The notes under the pieces were generated by a model. It was not told the DNA's origin and did not search any database. It was given only the letters and a program-made list of their open reading frames with translations. From a virus: a stretch of 40,309 nucleotides of DNA. A program made the translations under genes and the position numbers. Each line of letters begins with the position of its first letter. Position 1 is the first letter of the stretch. Positions 24,440 to 39,325 of the stretch are shown here, piece by piece. The stretch lies in the IMG/VR virus record IMGVR_UViG_3300046477_000426, positions 1-40,309 of that record, one strand, 5' to 3'.

Positions 24440-25022
24440 CGCCAACCAGCCACAGTGCGTAGCTACGCCAGAACCCGCAGTCGGTGACCTCGGGTGCGGC
24501 TGCAATTCCACACGCGCCGGATGGGTCGTCGCAACCACACACCCACAAGCCGAAGCCTGGGCCGACACCAACCTCCAGAGCCGCGGCTATCGCTGCTTCC
24601 TCCCACGCTACCCCGCACGCCGACCCGATCGCGCCACTCCAACCCTGCTGCACATCGTCCTCGCCCCTCTCTGGCCAGGATATCTCTTCGTCCACCACAA
24701 CAGCCGCGACAGCTGGCGGCCCATCTACGAAACACCAGGTGTCCGATCAGTGCTGAAACACGGCAATCAGATCCAGTGGGTCAACGCGGGCGCTGTGGAG
24801 GCCGTACAGGCCGCTCAGGCGTTCGCCGCTATATCCACCGGAAATGAGGCCCAATGGCACCCAGGCGACGCTGTGGCGCCTCGCGTGGGGCCGTTCGCAG
24901 GGCTGCCAGGTGTGGTACTGGCCGTCGAGGGCGAAAACGCCACCGTCGGCATCCTCTTCCTCGGACAACTACGCGAGGTTGTCTACCCATTCGACGCACT
25001 CGTCGAGCGTCAGGACTACTGA
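24429..25022 (+). CDS. NusG/RfaH-like transcription elongation factor
   Basis: 197 aa from the ATG at 24429 (a GTG at 24417 is the alternative). The N-terminal NGN domain is visible: WVVATTHPQAEAWADTNLQS, GYRCFLPRYPARR, LAPLWPGYLFVHHNS, and TPGVRSVLKHGNQIQW. The C-terminal KOW fold is HPGDAVAPRVGPFAGLPGVV and FLGQLREVVYPFDALV. RfaH and phage paralogues bind RNA polymerase and antiterminate at selected operons. In this phage it is the last gene of the rightward early operon, the place of lambda N/Q-like regulators, so it may let polymerase read into distal or late genes. The host NusG would be its competitor. Confidence 0.85.
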   Translation: MPLDANQPQCVATPEPAVGDLGCGCNSTRAGWVVATTHPQAEAWADTNLQSRGYRCFLPRYPARRPDRATPTLLHIVLAPLWPGYLFVHHNSRDSWRPIYETPGVRSVLKHGNQIQWVNAGAVEAVQAAQAFAAISTGNEAQWHPGDAVAPRVGPFAGLPGVVLAVEGENATVGILFLGQLREVVYPFDALVERQDY

Positions 25023-26222: not shown

Positions 26223-26386
26223 ACCTACTGCTGCTGGTCGTTATTCTGATCGTGCTGTTCGGGTTTGGCGGCGGGTATTATGGCTATCGCGGCGGCTACT
26301 ACGGATACGGCGGGTTTGGAGGAATAGGGCTTGTGCTGCTGATCATCGTGCTGCTCATTCTGTTCGGTGGGGGGCGGTTCTGGTGA
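26219..26386 (+). CDS. DUF3309-like small membrane protein (55 aa)
   Basis: 55 aa: two hydrophobic stretches (NLLLLVVILIVLFGFGG and GLVLLIIVLLILFGGG) around a Gly/Tyr-rich loop (YYGYRGGYYGYGGFGG). The pattern of short hydrophobic segment, Gly-Tyr loop, second segment and Gly-rich end is similar to the DUF3309 family found in proteobacteria and their phages. Coupled upstream by ATGA and 4-base overlap downstream with the methyltransferase. Role unknown, perhaps membrane-related protection. Confidence 0.6.
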   Translation: MNLLLLVVILIVLFGFGGGYYGYRGGYYGYGGFGGIGLVLLIIVLLILFGGGRFW

Positions 26387-27777
26387 TCCGGCTGCTCAGC
26401 GGGGATTGTAGAGACGTGCTGGCCACGCTGCCGGCCGACAGCGTGCAGTGCGTTGTGACCAGCCCCCCTTACTACGGGCTGCGCGATTATGGCACCGCGC
26501 AGTGGGATGGTGGGAATACGGCGTGCGATCACGTCGCAGGCAATGCGCGCAATGACGTGACACCAGAGCGATTGGCAGAGCGTGCGGCGCAATTCGGGAC
26601 GGGAACGGGCGCAGGCAGCAAGGTCGGTGCCATCCAGTTCCGCGACACATGCGGCAAGTGTGGTGCGGTGCGGGTTGACCGCCAGATCGGGCTGGAGCCG
26701 ACGCCGGACGAGTATCTGGCGACGATGGTCGCGGTGTTCACAGAAGTGCGGCGTGTGCTGCGCCCGGATGGGACGTGCTGGGTCAACATGGGCGATTCTT
26801 ACGCCTCCGCACCGGTTGGCTCGTTCAATGGTGGCGGGTTCAAAGACAAGAGCGCGCAGACCGGCGGGCGCGATATGTCAGGCGTTGCGACTAGCGGCAT
26901 CATCGACAAGGTGAAGGCGTCGGGCCTCAAGCCCAAAGACCTGCTGATGATGCCGGCGCGGCTGGCGCTGGCGTTGCAGGCCGATGGCTGGTGGATCAGG
27001 AGCGACATCATATGGCACAAGCCGAACCCGATGCCGGAGAGCGTGACGGATCGGTGCGTTTCGGCTCACGAGCACGTCTTCATGCTCACGAAATCCGCCC
27101 GCTATTTCTTTGACAGCGTGGCCATCGCAGAACCCACCGAGGCATCATCACTGGAGCGTCTGAGCCAGGACGTAGCGGGTCAGGTCGGTTCTGTGCGAGC
27201 CAATGGCGGCGCCAAAACCAACGGGCCGATGCGCGCTGTCGGTGGCCCAACGCGCTCGTGTCGGAATGTCTGGACGTTGGCAACACATAGTTTCGCTGCC
27301 GCGCACTTTGCGACATACCCGCCTGCGCTGGCCGAGCGCTGCATCAAGGCTGGCACGTCGGAGCGCGGCTGTTGCAGCCAGTGCGGCAAGCCGTGGGTGC
27401 GGGTGACCGATACCAGCTATCAGAAGCTCACCGGGAGCAGCGGGCGCAACGACAGCACTGGCTCGAACAACTGGGACGGCGGCGGTTATCCGCGCATGGA
27501 CAAGCACATCATCACCACCGGCTGGCGCGCAGGCTGCGACCACGAGGCGCCTGTCGTTCCATGCACTGTCCTCGATCCATTTGCCGGCGCTGGCACCACG
27601 CTGCTGGTGGCCGACCGGCTGCAACGTGACGCGATCGGTATTGAGCTAAACACCGCCTACACCGAAATGGCCATGCAGCGCTGCCGAGACGATGCGCCGC
27701 TGTTCGCTGACCTGCCGCCGGCCGCTGACCCGGAGGACGAGCGTATGGCGGATCTGTTCGCGGAAGCCGCTGAGTGA
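26383..27777 (+). CDS. DNA (adenine-N6 or cytosine-N4) methyltransferase
   Basis: 464 aa from GTG. The catalytic motif TSPPYYGLRDYG is at residues about 26-37 and the SAM-binding motif DPFAGAGTT at 398-406, so motif IV precedes motif I: the beta-class order. Between them are two zinc-ribbon-like cysteine clusters (CGKCGAVRVD near residue 88, CCSQCGKPW near 330) and IWHKPNPMPESVTDR, seen in many phage methylases. It probably protects phage DNA from host restriction or marks it for regulation. No cognate endonuclease is adjacent, so it is an orphan. Target site cannot be predicted. Confidence 0.9.
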   Translation: MIRLLSGDCRDVLATLPADSVQCVVTSPPYYGLRDYGTAQWDGGNTACDHVAGNARNDVTPERLAERAAQFGTGTGAGSKVGAIQFRDTCGKCGAVRVDRQIGLEPTPDEYLATMVAVFTEVRRVLRPDGTCWVNMGDSYASAPVGSFNGGGFKDKSAQTGGRDMSGVATSGIIDKVKASGLKPKDLLMMPARLALALQADGWWIRSDIIWHKPNPMPESVTDRCVSAHEHVFMLTKSARYFFDSVAIAEPTEASSLERLSQDVAGQVGSVRANGGAKTNGPMRAVGGPTRSCRNVWTLATHSFAAAHFATYPPALAERCIKAGTSERGCCSQCGKPWVRVTDTSYQKLTGSSGRNDSTGSNNWDGGGYPRMDKHIITTGWRAGCDHEAPVVPCTVLDPFAGAGTTLLVADRLQRDAIGIELNTAYTEMAMQRCRDDAPLFADLPPAADPEDERMADLFAEAAE

Positions 27778-32399: not shown

Positions 32400-32932
32400 G
32401 CGGTTTGCTTGGCCCGGTGGTGGCGCAAGGCATCACGCCCGACAGCGGGCAGGGGCAGCTAGCGACAGCGATCAGCAGCTTCTTTGGTGGGGGCACACCG
32501 CAGTTCAGCACGCCCACGCCACAGGCTGCAGCGCCCGCGCCAGACCCGACCTATGACAAGTGGGGCCATGTCGTCACAGGGAGCCCGCAAGGGCAGGTGG
32601 CGGCGCCAGCAGCTCCCGCACCCGCCGTGCCGTCGCTTAATGTCGGGCCAGGGCTGGCACAGGCGACGCCACAAGCCGCACCCGGGGCGATCAATCCTGG
32701 CGCCAGCGGTTACGACATGTGGGGGCGGCAGGCGCCCGTGCAGGCCCAGCCGCAGGCCGCGCCGCAACTGCCGGGCCTCGCTGACATCCTGGCGATGATC
32801 CAGGCGGAACAGGCCAGGCAGGCGCGGGCGAACCAGAACGCGCCGCAAGGGCTACTAGGCGGTGGTGGCAACGAGGCCGGCGGCGACCAGGGTTCTGCCG
32901 ACCACGGCGGCGCCGATAGCGGGGTGATATGA
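32396..32932 (+). CDS. Pro/Ala-rich disordered protein between terminase and portal
   Basis: 178 aa, starting SGLLGPVVAQGITPDSGQG. Highly disordered with many Pro/Ala/Gln, one helix near 128-145 (LADILAMIQAEQARQARANQ), and two similar segments (DPTYDKWGHVVTG and ASGYDMWGRQAPV). Coupled by ATGA to both the terminase and the portal. Related phrasing (MSGLLGPV, GLLGPVWS) recurs in the gene at 35866, so they may be paralogous virion proteins. Unknown function. Confidence 0.6.
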   Translation: MSGLLGPVVAQGITPDSGQGQLATAISSFFGGGTPQFSTPTPQAAAPAPDPTYDKWGHVVTGSPQGQVAAPAAPAPAVPSLNVGPGLAQATPQAAPGAINPGASGYDMWGRQAPVQAQPQAAPQLPGLADILAMIQAEQARQARANQNAPQGLLGGGGNEAGGDQGSADHGGADSGVI

Positions 32933-35640
32933 GCGGACTGATCGCACGACCCGGCGGCCTGTTGTCCCCCATGGGCATGCCCCAAGGGATTATCCCGCCC
33001 CTGCCGCCGCTGCCCAATCTTGTTCCCAGCGGAATGCAGCCTCAGGGGTTGAACCTTGGTAGCGAGCAGATGCTTGCTTACCTGGTGCCACAGCCGCGCG
33101 CCAATGTTCCCGACGATCCGGATCTGGGCCTGCCGCCAAATCTGCGGCGCTATGCGGCGGGATTACGCCCGACCGTCAAGCCGGCCGGCGTGCCGTGGCA
33201 GCAAGAGATCGTCTTCGAGCGACTGGGGAAAGACGACAGAGAGATTGAGGCTATAGCTCAATATTATTTCGGGTCCGCACAGAACTATGACGCCTATCTC
33301 AGTCGCGAGCGTATTACGGCGTCGCAGTACTACGATGGGCGCCCACTCGGTGATGAAACGCCGGGACGCTCGCAGATCGTGCTCACCGTGGTCCGCGATA
33401 CGATCAGGAGTACGCTGCCGTCGCTGCTCCGCGTGTTCACCGGCGTCGAAGACCCGGTCAGCTTTGAACCGATTTCGTCTGAGATCACCGGCAACGATCA
33501 ATTGGCGACAACGTTGGCGCGCCAGGCGACCGATTATGCGCGCTGGGCGCTGATGACCGCCAACCACGGCTGGCAGGTGCTGCACGATGTGCTGTTGGAC
33601 GCCTTGACGCGGAAAGCGGGGTGGGCACGCTGGTATTGGGGCAAGCGTGAGCAGGTGCGGACGGATGTCTGCGAGGGTCTGCTGCAGCCGCAACTCCAGA
33701 TGCTGCTCGCCCAGCCCGGCATCGAGGCGCAGCGCATCGTCCGACGCCCGATGACGGACGAGGAAATCTCCACCCTGCAGAAGACCCCCGATGGGGCGAT
33801 GTATCTGCAGTCGGGTGGTGCTGCGGAAATGTGGAGTGCCACCATCACCCGCACCGCGCAGCAGAATTGGCCGGTGGTCGAGGCCGTGCCAGCCGAGTGC
33901 GTCTGGGTGGTGGCCGACGCCGATACCGTCGATGGCGCGCGCGGCATCTTTCATGTGCGCGATGTCCCAGCATCCGACCTGATCGAGATGGGGCTGCCAG
34001 AGGACAAGATCCTCGCCTACTGCGACACCATGATGCGCCCGCAGCAGCGCCGCGAGATGATCGCCCGTAACCCGGCGCAAGGGCACAACATCAAGCCGTC
34101 GCCCCCAGGTGACCGTAGTATGGGCATCTGTCGATACGCCGAGGGTTGGATCAGGTGCGATACGGACAACGACCATAAGGCGGAACTCATCCACGTCCAT
34201 ATGCTGGGCAACGCCACCAAGATGATCCAGTGGGAGCGGGTAGATGAGATACCGCTCGCGTGTTTCACGCCGTACCGGGAACCCGGGCGGCTGATCGGCT
34301 ATTCGCAGGCCGACATGGTCATGGACCTGCAGCGGGTCGAGAGCCGGGTCATGCGCGCGACGCTCGACAGCCTGGCGCAGAGCATGTTCCCGCGCACGGT
34401 CGTCACCTTGGGGCAAGTCAACCTCGCAGACGCCAGACAAACGGCCATCGGGTCGATCATCCGCACCACCCAGGCGGGCGCCGTCACCGAGCTGGTGAAG
34501 CCGTATACGGGTCAGGCGGCGCTTGAGATGATGCAAGCGCTGGAGGCCATCAGGGAGAGCAGGACAGGGATTACGCGAGCTTCGCAGGGGCTCACCGTGG
34601 ATGAGCTGCAGAGCACGGCACCCGTGGCCGTGTCGGCGCAGACCAGCGCAGCTCAGGACCGGCTCGACATGATGGCGCGGACGTTGGCGGAAACCGGATT
34701 GGCGCCGCTCTACAGTGGGCTATTGCGCATGATGGCGCGGCATCAGGACCGGCCGAATGTGTACAGGATTAGAGGCCAATGGGTGCCGATCGATCCGCGT
34801 GCCCTCGGCGTGATGTGGCAGACCAGCGTCAACGTCGGCGGCAAGGGCATGCCGATGGAACGCCTGGCGATGCTCGCCCAGATCGCCGGCAAGCAAGAGA
34901 TGATCATGCAGACGCAAGGGTTAACCAATCCCTTGGTCGGTGTGCCGGAATACCGGAACACGCTGTCGCGGATGCTGGAAACCGCCAACATTGCCGATGT
35001 GTCCTCGTACTTCAAAGCCCTGCCGCCCGGGTTCCAGGCGCCGCCGCCACCACCGACACCGCCCGATCCGTCGCTGATCCTCGCCCAGGTGCAGGCCGGC
35101 AAGACCGCGGCCGATGTCGAGAACGATCGGGCATCCGAACAAACCAAACGCGCGCAGATGCTGACCGATGATGATCTGAACAGGGACAAAGCTGCGCTCG
35201 ATGCGTGGACCAAGACCTGGGTGGCCGGAGCGCAGTTCGGCACCCCTGTGCCGTCGCTCACCGAATTCCAGCAGGCGATGGCCAGCAAGGCGCCCTCGGT
35301 CCAGCTGCTGGGCAATCTGCCGCCACCCACCAGCCCGCAGATGCCAGCCACGGCAGGCCCACCCCCAGGCCAGCCGGCACAGGGGCCGCCACGGCCTCCG
35401 CAGGCGCCAGCTGCCCCTGGGCCATCCATGGTGCCACCACACCCACAGCAGCCCATGGGGCCGCCCGTAGGCTCGACCAATCCGGCGCAGGCGATGGCCA
35501 CCCGCCAGGCGCTCATGCAGGGCCAGATGCCAAGCGCCTATGGCAACATCGCCGCCAACGCCGCGGCGAAGTCGTTGTTCGGTCCCGGGGGGCCGCCATT
35601 GCCGCGGCCGGGCGGGCCACCACCACAACCAGGGCAGTAA
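32929..35640 (+). CDS. Portal protein
   Basis: 903 aa, a typical large podoviral portal. Segments seen: IVFERLGKDDREIEAIAQYY, FGSAQNYDAYLSRERITASQ, GRPLGDETPGRSQIVLTVVR, then RDTIRSTLPSLLRVFTGVED, a W-rich crown region, and QSTAPVAVSAQTSAAQDRLD in the late helix. It forms the dodecameric gate in the capsid through which DNA enters and leaves. The last 200 residues are Pro/Gln-rich and extended. Residues 788-798, APSVQLLGNLP, are encoded by the stretch that resembles the spacer of the left CRISPR array (35290-35321). Preceded by terminase and one disordered protein, all coupled. Confidence 0.9.
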   Translation: MSGLIARPGGLLSPMGMPQGIIPPLPPLPNLVPSGMQPQGLNLGSEQMLAYLVPQPRANVPDDPDLGLPPNLRRYAAGLRPTVKPAGVPWQQEIVFERLGKDDREIEAIAQYYFGSAQNYDAYLSRERITASQYYDGRPLGDETPGRSQIVLTVVRDTIRSTLPSLLRVFTGVEDPVSFEPISSEITGNDQLATTLARQATDYARWALMTANHGWQVLHDVLLDALTRKAGWARWYWGKREQVRTDVCEGLLQPQLQMLLAQPGIEAQRIVRRPMTDEEISTLQKTPDGAMYLQSGGAAEMWSATITRTAQQNWPVVEAVPAECVWVVADADTVDGARGIFHVRDVPASDLIEMGLPEDKILAYCDTMMRPQQRREMIARNPAQGHNIKPSPPGDRSMGICRYAEGWIRCDTDNDHKAELIHVHMLGNATKMIQWERVDEIPLACFTPYREPGRLIGYSQADMVMDLQRVESRVMRATLDSLAQSMFPRTVVTLGQVNLADARQTAIGSIIRTTQAGAVTELVKPYTGQAALEMMQALEAIRESRTGITRASQGLTVDELQSTAPVAVSAQTSAAQDRLDMMARTLAETGLAPLYSGLLRMMARHQDRPNVYRIRGQWVPIDPRALGVMWQTSVNVGGKGMPMERLAMLAQIAGKQEMIMQTQGLTNPLVGVPEYRNTLSRMLETANIADVSSYFKALPPGFQAPPPPPTPPDPSLILAQVQAGKTAADVENDRASEQTKRAQMLTDDDLNRDKAALDAWTKTWVAGAQFGTPVPSLTEFQQAMASKAPSVQLLGNLPPPTSPQMPATAGPPPGQPAQGPPRPPQAPAAPGPSMVPPHPQQPMGPPVGSTNPAQAMATRQALMQGQMPSAYGNIAANAAAKSLFGPGGPPLPRPGGPPPQPGQ
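35290..35321 (+). other. Protospacer-like site for the left CRISPR array, with AAG PAM
   Basis: 32 bases in the portal gene match the left-array spacer at 25 positions. Mismatches are at spacer positions 7-10, 15, 21 and 30. Positions 15, 21 and 30 are third codon bases. The three bases just before the site (35287-35289) are AAG, the canonical type I-E PAM, in the right orientation. The mismatches at seed positions 7 and 8 should protect this phage. It therefore looks like the homologous locus of the true target in a related phage. Confidence 0.8.
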
Positions 35641-35647
35641 TTCCACG

Positions 35648-35677
35648 TTTCCAGGAACTTTCCAGGAACTTTCCAGG
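35648..35677. repeat. TTTCCAGGAAC tandem repeat after the portal
   Basis: Two full copies of an 11-bp unit (35648-35658, 35659-35669) and a partial third to 35677. Each unit contains TTCCAGGAA, which is nearly palindromic. May be a protein-binding array or a replication-slippage product. It sits between the portal stop and the next gene's ribosome site. Confidence 0.55.
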
Positions 35678-35709
35678 GCGAAATTCCTAATTCCACCAGG
35701 AGATCCACC

Positions 35710-35859
35710 ATGGTCACACGCGCATCCGGGAGCCAGAGCACGAAGACAGTGCCCAAGCAGGGCCAGAACAAGCCGGTGAGCGGCGGGGCGGCCGGGGCCG
35801 GCAAAGACCGCGGGGGCGCCAAGCTGCCCACCATCAGCAGAACCACAACCCGGAAGTGA
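35710..35859 (+). CDS. Small basic virion-cluster protein (49 aa)
   Basis: A 49 aa gene with strong ribosome site (CAGGAG) before the ATG. The sequence starts VTRASGSQSTKTVPKQGQN and ends TISRTTTRK: basic, polar and disordered. Between portal and next small gene. May bind nucleic acid or act as a decoration or internal peptide. No family recognised. Confidence 0.55.
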   Translation: MVTRASGSQSTKTVPKQGQNKPVSGGAAGAGKDRGGAKLPTISRTTTRK

Positions 35860-35865
35860 GCGGTA

Positions 35866-36171
35866 ATGCCAGCCAACGGGCTCCTCGGGCCAGTGTGGTC
35901 GGATAGCGGCGGAACGCCTGCGTCCGGCCCGATCCCGAGCGCAGATCCGGGCTGGTCGTTCGGTAATTTCCAGCAGTTGCCGACAGCGCCGCCACAGCAG
36001 ACCTACACCGGAGCGATCCCGACGCCCCGCGCTGATTATGCGGCCACCGCCTACGACCTGCCGCACGATTACTATCAGATGCAGCAGATGATGAATGCGG
36101 CTGGGCCGGATAATCCATTGCTCAATAAGGTGCTCCAGCTGCTGTCCCTCCAGCACAGGACCCGGACATGA
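35866..36171 (+). CDS. Small virion-cluster protein (101 aa)
   Basis: 101 aa, beginning PANGLLGPVWSDSGGTPAS, a Gly/Pro-rich start with partial likeness to the protein at 32396 (SGLLGPV). C-terminal helix DYYQMQQMMNAAGPDNPLLN, KVLQLLSLQ. No family recognised. Overlaps the next gene by 4 bases. Suggested minor capsid or assembly factor by position. Confidence 0.6.
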   Translation: MPANGLLGPVWSDSGGTPASGPIPSADPGWSFGNFQQLPTAPPQQTYTGAIPTPRADYAATAYDLPHDYYQMQQMMNAAGPDNPLLNKVLQLLSLQHRTRT

Positions 36172-36440
36172 GCGACCTCTCGCGCGAGGAACGCTACGAA
36201 ATCCAGCGCCGCGGCGGCGAGGCGCACCGCCTGCTGCAGGATGCCGAACTGATGAGCATCCTCACCTTTATCCGGGAAGGCGCGGTGCAGACCGCGGTGC
36301 ATGGTGCCGATGTCCGTGAGCGTGAGGACGCAAGGCAGTTAGCCAGAGCCATCGACCACCTGGCCACCGAGATGCGCTCACGCCTCGATACCGCCCTGCT
36401 GCAGAACCAGCGCGAGACTGATGGGCGGCGATTCGAGTAG
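36168..36440 (+). CDS. Small helical protein before the left CRISPR array (90 aa)
   Basis: 90 aa, helical throughout: SDLSREERYEIQRRGGEAHR, LLQDAELMSILTFIREGAVQ and RAIDHLATEMRSRLDTALLQ. Short phage proteins of this kind are common near portals and scaffolds. Overlaps the previous gene by 4 bases. Its stop codon (36438-36440) coincides with the outer end of the degenerate repeat of the left array, so array acquisition did not break it. Confidence 0.65.
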   Translation: MSDLSREERYEIQRRGGEAHRLLQDAELMSILTFIREGAVQTAVHGADVREREDARQLARAIDHLATEMRSRLDTALLQNQRETDGRRFE

Positions 36441-36527
36441 TTCATCCCCGCTGACGCAGGGAACACGGTAGATTGCCGAGCAGTTGGATGCCGGGCGCCG
36501 GTTCAACCCCGCACGCGCGGGGAACGC
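36438..36527 (-). CRISPR. Left mini-CRISPR array, type I-E-like, one spacer
   Basis: Two 29-nt repeats (36499-36527 and 36438-36466) separated by a 32-nt spacer (36467-36498), read on the - strand. The upstream repeat (GCGTTCCCCGC, 4-base loop, GCGGGGTTGAACCG end) is a full I-E-type stem with an 8-nt handle TTGAACCG. The second is degenerate (CCCTGC stem half, T:G wobble) as a terminal repeat would be, and its end overlaps the stop codon at 36438-36440. Repeat/spacer lengths 29/32 are those of Escherichia coli-type I-E arrays. The spacer matches the phage's portal gene at 25 of 32 positions next to AAG. No cas genes are in the window. Transcription on the - strand would need a promoter I do not see. 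Confidence 0.88.
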
Positions 36528-36563
36528 TCCACCCTACACACGCGAAACCCAAGATGGAACTCC

Positions 36564-37736: not shown

Positions 37737-37948
37737 GTGTTCCCCGCAGGCGCGGGGATGACCCGTGTGCATGGCCTGCACCATTGGCGCTGTCGTTGTG
37801 TTCCCCGCAGGCGCGGGGATGACCCGGGGAGTGCCGAGGCGAAGGTGTGCTGGATTGCGTGTTCCCCGCAGGCGCGGGGATGACCCGACCCGGGAGCAAT
37901 GCGATGTTGAAGATCGCATCGCGTTCCCCGCCGTGCGGGGATGACCAA
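37737..37948 (+). CRISPR. Right mini-CRISPR array, type I-E-like, three spacers
   Basis: Repeats 37737-37765, 37798-37826 and 37859-37887 are identical 29-mers: a GTGTTCCCCGC half, loop AGGC, GCGGGGATGACCCG half. The CCCCGC/GCGGGG stem and 8-nt ATGACCCG handle are type I-E features. Spacers S1 37766-37797 and S2 37827-37858 are 32 nt. S3 runs 37888-37920. The last repeat 37921-37948 is degenerate with a 3-base loop, as at a leader-distal end, so the leader is at the left. S2, read on the complement, encodes NPAHLRLGTP, the HNH_3 homing-endonuclease signature. It stands alone in the gap between scaffold and capsid and uses no cas genes of the window. Confidence 0.95.
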
Positions 37949-37986: not shown

Positions 37987-38341
37987 TACCGCCGACGTAT
38001 GGTGATGATCTTGAGGAACTTGTGATGTCCTACCGTCACATTGCTCCCTTGGAGATGCCGGGCAGGCCATTCCTGTCCGGCGTTTCTCGTTTAGCCGCTT
38101 GACGACGCCGTATCCACACCCGTAGCGTGCCCCCGTCGCCCGAAGGAGTGCTTGCACCAACCGGTAGGGCGAGACGTGACGTCGCAGGACGACCAAGCCG
38201 GCTATCGGCACGCAGCGCAGTCGGGATACCGACCAAGCAGCTAAACGCCCGAGTAGCCTCCAGTCAGATCCATTGCGAACCAGCAATTTTGGTTCAACCG
38301 GCACCAGGCGCCCAGCGCCGTGCTAAGCAATGGAGTAGACC
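37987..38341. other. Non-coding gap before the capsid gene, with a possible two-peptide leader
   Basis: About 355 bases without an established gene. Two tiny frames, an 8-codon MVMILRNL (37999-38025) and a 25-codon frame starting MSYRHIAPLEMPGRPFLSG (38025-38102), overlap by TGATG and have an AGGA site, so a small leader is possible but weakly supported. A hairpin GGCGC-CCA-GCGCC sits at 38307-38319 and a GGAG ribosome site precedes the capsid ATG. The rest could be a leader or a landing zone for acquired sequence. Confidence 0.5.
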
Positions 38342-39325
38342 ATGGCCGTTCCCGCACAGGGAGCCGCACCTGCAGGCACTTATATCGAGACAGCGGCTGT
38401 TGGTGTTCGCGAGGATCTTGCGGATATCATCTATCGCATCGATCCCGACGAGACACCGCTCGTGTCAAGTTGTTCCAGGGTCGGTTCCAAGCAAGTCCTG
38501 ACCGAATGGATCGTGCAGGAACTCAACCCGGCCGCAGATAACGCCCAACCCGAGGGCTTTACCGCGGTCATGCAGGCGGTGATCAAGCCAGTAAGACTGA
38601 ATAATGTCTGCCAGTTGCTGGCACGCACTGTCGGGGTATCGAATACGCTCCGCGTCGTGGACGTGGTCGGGGGGGAAGACGAGTATAACAGGAATATGAT
38701 TTTGAGGGGCATGGAGGTTAAGCGCGACCTCGAACTGGCGGTAACGTCCCCGCTGGTGCGCACCATCACCGACCCGAGGCATATGAGCGGCTTGCCCTGC
38801 TACACCAACTTCGGCGCACGCGGCGCCGGCGCCGGCGTCATGCCGATCGGTGACGGCTCCAACGCAGGCACCGCAGGCACCCCCTACGATCTCACCCTCG
38901 CCGTGGTGAACACCGCCGTGCAGCAATGCTGGCAGGCAGGGGGTAATCCGACATTGGCGATCATGTCGGGGAATATTAAGAATTACTTCGCGACATTGTC
39001 GCAGGGTGGGACCGGCAACCCAATCGTCGCCCAGAACATCGTCCAGGCGTCACCCACCGGCGAGATGACCATCCAGGGCGCGGTCGACGTGTACCGCACT
39101 AACTTCGGGACGATACAGTTGGCGCCCGATCGCTTCATGCCAGCGCATCAAATCCTGCTTGTATCTACGGACTATGTCGAGATGGCACCGTTGCCAGAGC
39201 GCGATATGATCCAGCAGGATTATGCCCAAACTGGGGACAACTCACAGGGTGGTGTGGTTTTCGAAGGATGCATCCGGCCTACAGCGCCTAAGGCCCACGC
39301 GACGATCTTCGATCTTAATCAGTAG
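38342..39325 (+). CDS. Major capsid protein (SU10-type HK97 fold)
   Basis: 327 aa. The opening TYIETAAVGVREDLADIIYR, IDPDETPLVSSCSRVGSKQV, LTEWIVQELNP matches SU10-type major head proteins. A central helix VGGEDEYNRNMILRGMEVKR and an A-domain with MSGNIKNYFATLSQGG, NPIVAQNIVQASPTGEMTIQ, VDVYRTNFGTIQLAPDRFMP follow. Preceded by a GGAG site and the scaffold gene, and followed by a mobile homing nuclease. Forms the icosahedral shell. No maturation protease gene is evident nearby. Confidence 0.92.
   Translation: MAVPAQGAAPAGTYIETAAVGVREDLADIIYRIDPDETPLVSSCSRVGSKQVLTEWIVQELNPAADNAQPEGFTAVMQAVIKPVRLNNVCQLLARTVGVSNTLRVVDVVGGEDEYNRNMILRGMEVKRDLELAVTSPLVRTITDPRHMSGLPCYTNFGARGAGAGVMPIGDGSNAGTAGTPYDLTLAVVNTAVQQCWQAGGNPTLAIMSGNIKNYFATLSQGGTGNPIVAQNIVQASPTGEMTIQGAVDVYRTNFGTIQLAPDRFMPAHQILLVSTDYVEMAPLPERDMIQQDYAQTGDNSQGGVVFEGCIRPTAPKAHATIFDLNQ

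Follow-up and report, generated by a model that had tools for sequence, protein, structure and literature searches.

Small type I-E CRISPR arrays of a phage match its relatives and mostly adjoin altered copies of their own targets

Why would a phage carry two very small arrays of clustered regularly interspaced short palindromic repeats (CRISPR), one of them with a spacer that resembles the phage's own portal gene? The question is raised by phage record IMGVR_UViG_3300046477_000426, which was analysed over its full length of 40,309 nt (the window). Its scaffold gene is flanked by one array on either side, both with the hallmarks of type I-E: repeats of about 29 nt, a short GC-rich palindrome, a period of 61 nt and spacers of 32 nt. 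The left array (36438-36527, minus strand) consists of a first repeat GCGTTCCCCGCGCGTGCGGGGTTGAACCG (36499-36527), found nearly identical at the same site in phages G012, G013 and G020, a single spacer L1, GCGCCCGGCATCCAACTGCTCGGCAATCTACC (36467-36498), and a degenerate terminal repeat GTGTTCCCTGCGTCAGCGGGGATGAACTA (36438-36466), recognised by its sequence and hairpin fold. In the right array (37737-37948, plus strand), three repeats recognised by sequence (37737-37765, GTGTTCCCCGCAGGCGCGGGGATGACCCG; 37798-37826; 37859-37887) alternate with spacers R1 (37766-37797), R2 (37827-37858) and R3 (37888-37920). The count of three spacers corrects an earlier reading, since a degenerate fourth repeat, GCGTTCCCCGCCGTGCGGGGATGACCAA (37921-37948), could be identified from its sequence and fold. 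Identical arrays recur in separate contigs of other samples, those of the window in contig 3300049448_000154, and an assembly error was rejected on this ground.

Spacer L1 agrees at 25 of 32 positions with the window's own portal gene (903 aa, 32929-35640, plus strand; phrog_1216, E 1.1e-104). The site (35290-35321, plus strand) is immediately preceded by AAG (35287-35289) as protospacer adjacent motif (PAM), and the mismatches fall at positions 7, 8, 9, 10, 15, 21 and 30, the first two within the seed. Recomputation thus reproduced what a first-pass annotation had reported of this similarity. The own site is the best L1 match in the window, with a runner-up of 20/32; shuffled versions of L1 (n = 400) scored at most 23 in the window, and reversed 32-mers of the window reached at least 25 in 1 of 400 cases. 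Taken alone within the window, the 25/32 match is suggestive rather than overwhelming. The first-pass annotation had further proposed that L1 was acquired from the portal gene of a related phage, and this is supported by the 73 loci with related portals that were fetched: about 25 portal genes match L1 better than the own site does, with 26-29 of 32 identities at the homologous position. The best targets (29/32 with AAG) occur in five records, G002, G003, G004, G039 and G040, with mismatches at positions 2, 6 and 30. Type I-E Cascade leaves every sixth base unpaired, and only the mismatch at position 2 should therefore count, since 6 and 30 are such unpaired positions. As a control, spacers of bacterial I-E arrays that share the repeat core (n = 2447) reached no more than 26/32 against these phages.

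The strongest evidence for targeting between phages comes from the right array. Spacer R1 matches a small open reading frame of phage G032 (IMGVR 3300049450_000044) at 32/32 after ATG; other viral contigs hold only the array copy, and no homologue of this target was found in the window phage. In the opposite direction, spacer R2 of G032, present also in G027, matches the window at 32/32 after ATG (38333-38364, plus strand), across the start of the major head protein gene (38342-39325, plus strand; phrog_1328, E 3e-65), and G032's own version of this site differs at positions 4, 5, 7 and 8. Spacer R1 of G032 matches a transcription antiterminator-like gene of the window (24550-24581, plus strand) at 28/32 after AAG. 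About 19 kb of the two genomes can be aligned, at about 80% identity. Because of these reciprocal exact matches, inter-phage targeting is the clear reading, and the pair would document mutual CRISPR targeting of two related bacteriophages, each dodging its own guide. Spacer R3 matches G006 at 28/32 and G014 and contig L054 at 27/32, in the intergenic region between the scaffold and major head protein genes.

As a separate observation, one spacer of G005 and one of G032 have their targets at a single gene start, offset by three bases (L006:2303-2334 and L250:10425-10456). Their different PAMs (ATG and AAG) suggest that the two may have arisen independently.

The same pattern is seen in most mini-arrays of the phage group. 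When 11 of the group's spacers were compared against 73 records, 10 reached 27/32 or more in a relative, and the PAM was AAG or ATG for seven of these ten (the exceptions being G012_L1, R3 and G029_1). The owners' orthologous sites, where present, are mostly altered at seed or PAM and otherwise heavily diverged. This supports the earlier proposal that L1 spares this genome: its own portal site is altered at seed positions 7 and 8, and most spacers of the relatives behave alike. Of the 21 mismatches in the targets, 11 sit at multiples of six (p = 1e-4), as do 11 of the 13 that lie on multiples of three (p = 0.011); the mismatches of self-sites show no such clustering. At the self-site of spacer a1 of G005, the encoded peptide VYDKRTTVGA-stop is kept although 9 of 11 codons are changed.

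Targets also lie close to the arrays. With distances taken in the target genomes, 8 of 10 protospacers fall within 1.3 kb of where the array is inserted at the orthologous position, at 12-849 bp (binomial 1.3e-8). The two distant cases are R1 of the window and R1 of G032, whose targets lie 14-18 kb off; both are leader-proximal spacers of multi-spacer arrays, and the terminal spacers of these same arrays have local targets. New spacers normally enter arrays at the leader-proximal end. In other phages with I-E-like repeats, 52 spacers were compared with their own genomes, and for 13 of them no tile matched as well as the 1.4-kb one adjacent to the array; the expectation was 2.6, and a reversed control gave 1.

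Further self-matches were noted outside this comparison. Mini-array spacers in L302, L285, G050, G051, G053, G059, G061 and G069 have imperfect self-matches 18-1220 bp away, often following ATG, AAG or AAA. Contigs L287, L289, L293, L312 and L317 share a spacer with a perfect match on the same contig, with TGA in place of the usual PAM; in L287 and L289 this match lies about 1.4 kb from the array. The 41-kb phage G053 (L384-L386) carries I-E-like repeats at five places; two of these are complete mini-arrays, whose self-sites lie at distances of 30 and 79 bp.

Comparison of array-bearing and array-free relatives indicates how arrays and altered sites are inherited. The relatives are mosaic in sequence, and many of them have an empty insertion site, from which the array is cleanly absent. 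In two pairs of diverged phages the array is shared within a tract of high identity. The array common to G012 and G013 lies inside a tract of about 1 kb that is mostly 95-100% identical, compared with 75-93% immediately to its right and 76-80% to its left; that of G005 and L284, together with the abutting self-site, lies in a tract of about 240 bp with about 98% identity and flanks of 75-88%. Since these tracts hold both, array and altered allele would have moved as one piece in either pair, and an array seems to be inherited with its immune allele as a single unit.

On the basis of these matches, altered self-sites, distances and shared tracts, all of which can be read directly from the sequence, we propose that the leaderless I-E mini-arrays use host Cas proteins to exclude competing phages and are linked to the owner's immune allele, a reading to which we assign a probability of roughly 85%. 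Transcription, the use of host Cas proteins, the exclusion of competitors and the reason for the linkage are what we infer. In a type I-E host, Cas6e would process the transcripts of the two cas-less arrays, and host Cascade/Cas3 loaded with the resulting CRISPR RNAs (crRNAs) would attack related phages in the same cell, the L1 crRNA being directed at the relatives' portal gene and the R1 crRNA at a gene of G032. The phage would escape its own guides because the target of each is, in its own genome, changed at seed or PAM, strongly diverged or missing. Spacers that are single or terminal mostly adjoin the owner's altered target, and in the cases checked array and altered target are inherited together.

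Several results weigh against this proposal. The contrast in seed and PAM between targets and self-sites (permissive in 5 of 7 versus 1 of 7, p = 0.10) is not significant alone, although it is a clear trend in a small sample. The best L1 targets retain the seed mismatch at position 2. The spacer search suggested by the first-pass annotation did yield better AAG-flanked portal sites but no exact one in viral contigs, and a degenerate search across 2.9 million viral contigs (IMG/VR) gave nothing above 29/32, so that the source phage of L1 is presumably unsampled or has since mutated. Viral contigs gave no match to R2 apart from its copy in the array, also when every sixth base was allowed to differ, and the best sites of R3 lack a canonical PAM. 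A promoter scan near the arrays revealed neither a sigma-70 promoter nor a leader. Finally, the exact 29-nt repeat occurs in none of the bacterial genomes searched.

One account of the proximity is that of linkage only, in which arrays exclude relatives and persist only beside their immune allele, since an array parted from it by recombination would kill its own carrier, with no targeted copying. We regard this as an even bet. The distances and the co-inheritance fit it, the relatives are mosaic, and the window encodes a RecT-like single-stranded DNA annealing protein of phage recombination (16433-17530, minus strand; phrog_148, E 1e-54). By itself, however, it leaves tracts of about 240 bp in strongly diverged genomes unexplained.

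Another account is RNA-guided homing, in which the array would be a selfish cassette: a Cas cut in a co-infecting relative, at the site beside the array's insertion point, is repaired from the array-bearing genome, so that array and immune allele are copied together, in the manner of the free-standing homing endonucleases of T4. This idea would add to, rather than replace, the exclusion of competitors by host Cas proteins, and we hold it tentatively, with the odds somewhat against it. Hallmarks of a homing element are present, namely insertion near the target, an altered site in the carrier and an empty site in relatives, and the linkage pattern is suggestive, though no proof, of an RNA-guided counterpart to the homing endonucleases of phages. 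The closeness of 8 of 10 targets, the excess of array-adjacent self-matches (13 of 52), the tracts common to G005/L284 and G012/G013, and the recoded a1 self-site of G005 with its unchanged peptide all favour it, as does the precedent of segG and segF of T4, which adjoin their targets and show co-conversion of flanks (PMC2988022). On the other hand, ordinary recombination with selection for linkage yields the same tracts, and selection against suicidal recombinants accounts for most of the data equally well; Cas3 degrades DNA instead of leaving a clean break, which makes repair-based copying uncertain; and the leader-proximal R1 spacers of the window and G032 aim 14-18 kb away. With a similar reserve, the mini-arrays could be seen as natural, gene-drive-like RNA-guided homing cassettes, with different CRISPR types competing for one insertion site. 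Each cassette, made up of a short array and the altered target allele beside it, would spread by having host Cascade/Cas3 destroy or convert the corresponding region in co-infecting relatives. Should it be true that the unit spreads by targeted copying, phages would own natural CRISPR-based homing elements.

The repeats might instead act as RNA anti-CRISPRs (Racrs), sequestering host Cas6e or Cas7 as decoys whatever the spacers. Racr units are likewise phage-borne CRISPR repeats without cas genes, and I-E Racrs exist (PMC10651486). A lone repeat in contig L015 (1916-1944; G013), at a place where G005 and G032 hold repeat-spacer-repeat, looks like either the product of recombination between two repeats or such an RNA anti-CRISPR. 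Racrs are solitary, however, whereas the arrays described here have 32-nt spacers that match relatives next to PAMs, partly in a reciprocal fashion, which makes this explanation very improbable. Still less credence can be given to self-regulation, in which Cascade guided by the imperfect L1 would bind the portal gene of the phage itself and dampen its expression; the own site does retain its AAG and 25/32 identity, but self-regulation was rejected for the site's mismatches in the seed and the better matches in relatives, and the own sites of other spacers are worse or absent. Chance resemblance of a GC-rich spacer, which the one reversed 32-mer in 400 would allow, has a negligible probability and was rejected because about 25 relatives match L1 with 26-29 of 32 identities at the homologous position and control spacers never exceed 26.

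Phage mini-arrays are already known as a class, and the present case is an unusually well documented one. A close parallel is found in the Saccharolobus portogloboviruses SPV1 and SPV2, in which the mini-array of either virus is directed at the other (Medvedeva 2019, PMC6858448). As here, these arrays are cas-less and intergenic, hold few spacers and match relatives at sites not far from the array, the carrier's own site being mutated. In contrast to this chronic archaeal virus, the carriers here are bacteriophages, the repeats are of type I-E, there is no recognisable leader, and the arrays are common to diverged phages within array-centred tracts. According to PMC6858448 and PMC7099407, a 2019 survey by Faure et al. 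covered leaderless mini-arrays of phages and prophages, some spacers of which target adjacent genes of relatives and spare the carrier. The present arrays resemble them in being leaderless and in targeting adjacent genes of close relatives and not of the carrier; beyond that work as cited, the proximity is quantified here, reciprocal exact matches are found, and array and altered self-site move together. Arrays directed at other phages occur in huge phages as well (PMC7162821). With the T4-like homing endonucleases segF, segG and mobE (PMC2988022) the arrays share an intergenic position, a neighbouring gene that is attacked in relatives, and co-inherited flanks; unlike them, the guide is RNA, the nuclease would be that of the host, and copying is hypothetical, so that the likeness to free-standing homing endonucleases is put forward as a hypothesis. 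In the literature searched, we did not find stated the tract common to array and immune allele, the recoded self-site, or the likeness to homing endonucleases. The results bear on a question that was open in 2019, namely why arrays target sites near themselves.

The 26-nt repeat core occurs in arrays of many unrelated bacteria, and cores identical at 25 or more of 26 nt adjoin genes for Cas6e, Cas1e and Cas5e (L159, L137, L161); no cas genes were found near the array of L105. Among the window proteins scanned, which did not comprise every open reading frame, none matched a cas gene. The exact 29-mer did not occur in any genome sampled from the order (397 genomes) or the class (385 genomes) of an Acetobacteraceae genome. 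A search for the host by spacers from bacterial arrays with the core gave at best 26/32 against these phages and did not identify it, and a search of Rfam gave no relevant match.

A different element with a single spacer occupies the left site (orthologous to window 36441-36563) in the five relatives with the best L1 targets. In this element GCGTCTCGGACCTCATTGAAGC is followed by some 35 variable nucleotides and then by TCCGAGACGC, with ATTGAAGC as handle (in G003, L219:10080-10220). The element is probably a non-I-E mini-array; its CRISPR type, read from the handle, would be a guess. Variable stretches match adjacent genes of relatives, including the window (29/35 for that of G003, at 36387-36421, plus strand, with CTC in front, in the gene at 36168-36440), and G003's own copy of the target is altered. 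The window phage and G003 may therefore be a further case of mutual targeting.

The recognised genes of the window are those for portal, terminase, scaffold and major head protein, and a 56-base repeat is common to both of its ends. A DNA methyltransferase gene (N6_N4_Mtase) is located at 26383-27777, and neighbouring small genes hold a direct repeat of 63 nt with 79% identity (187-249 and 426-488).

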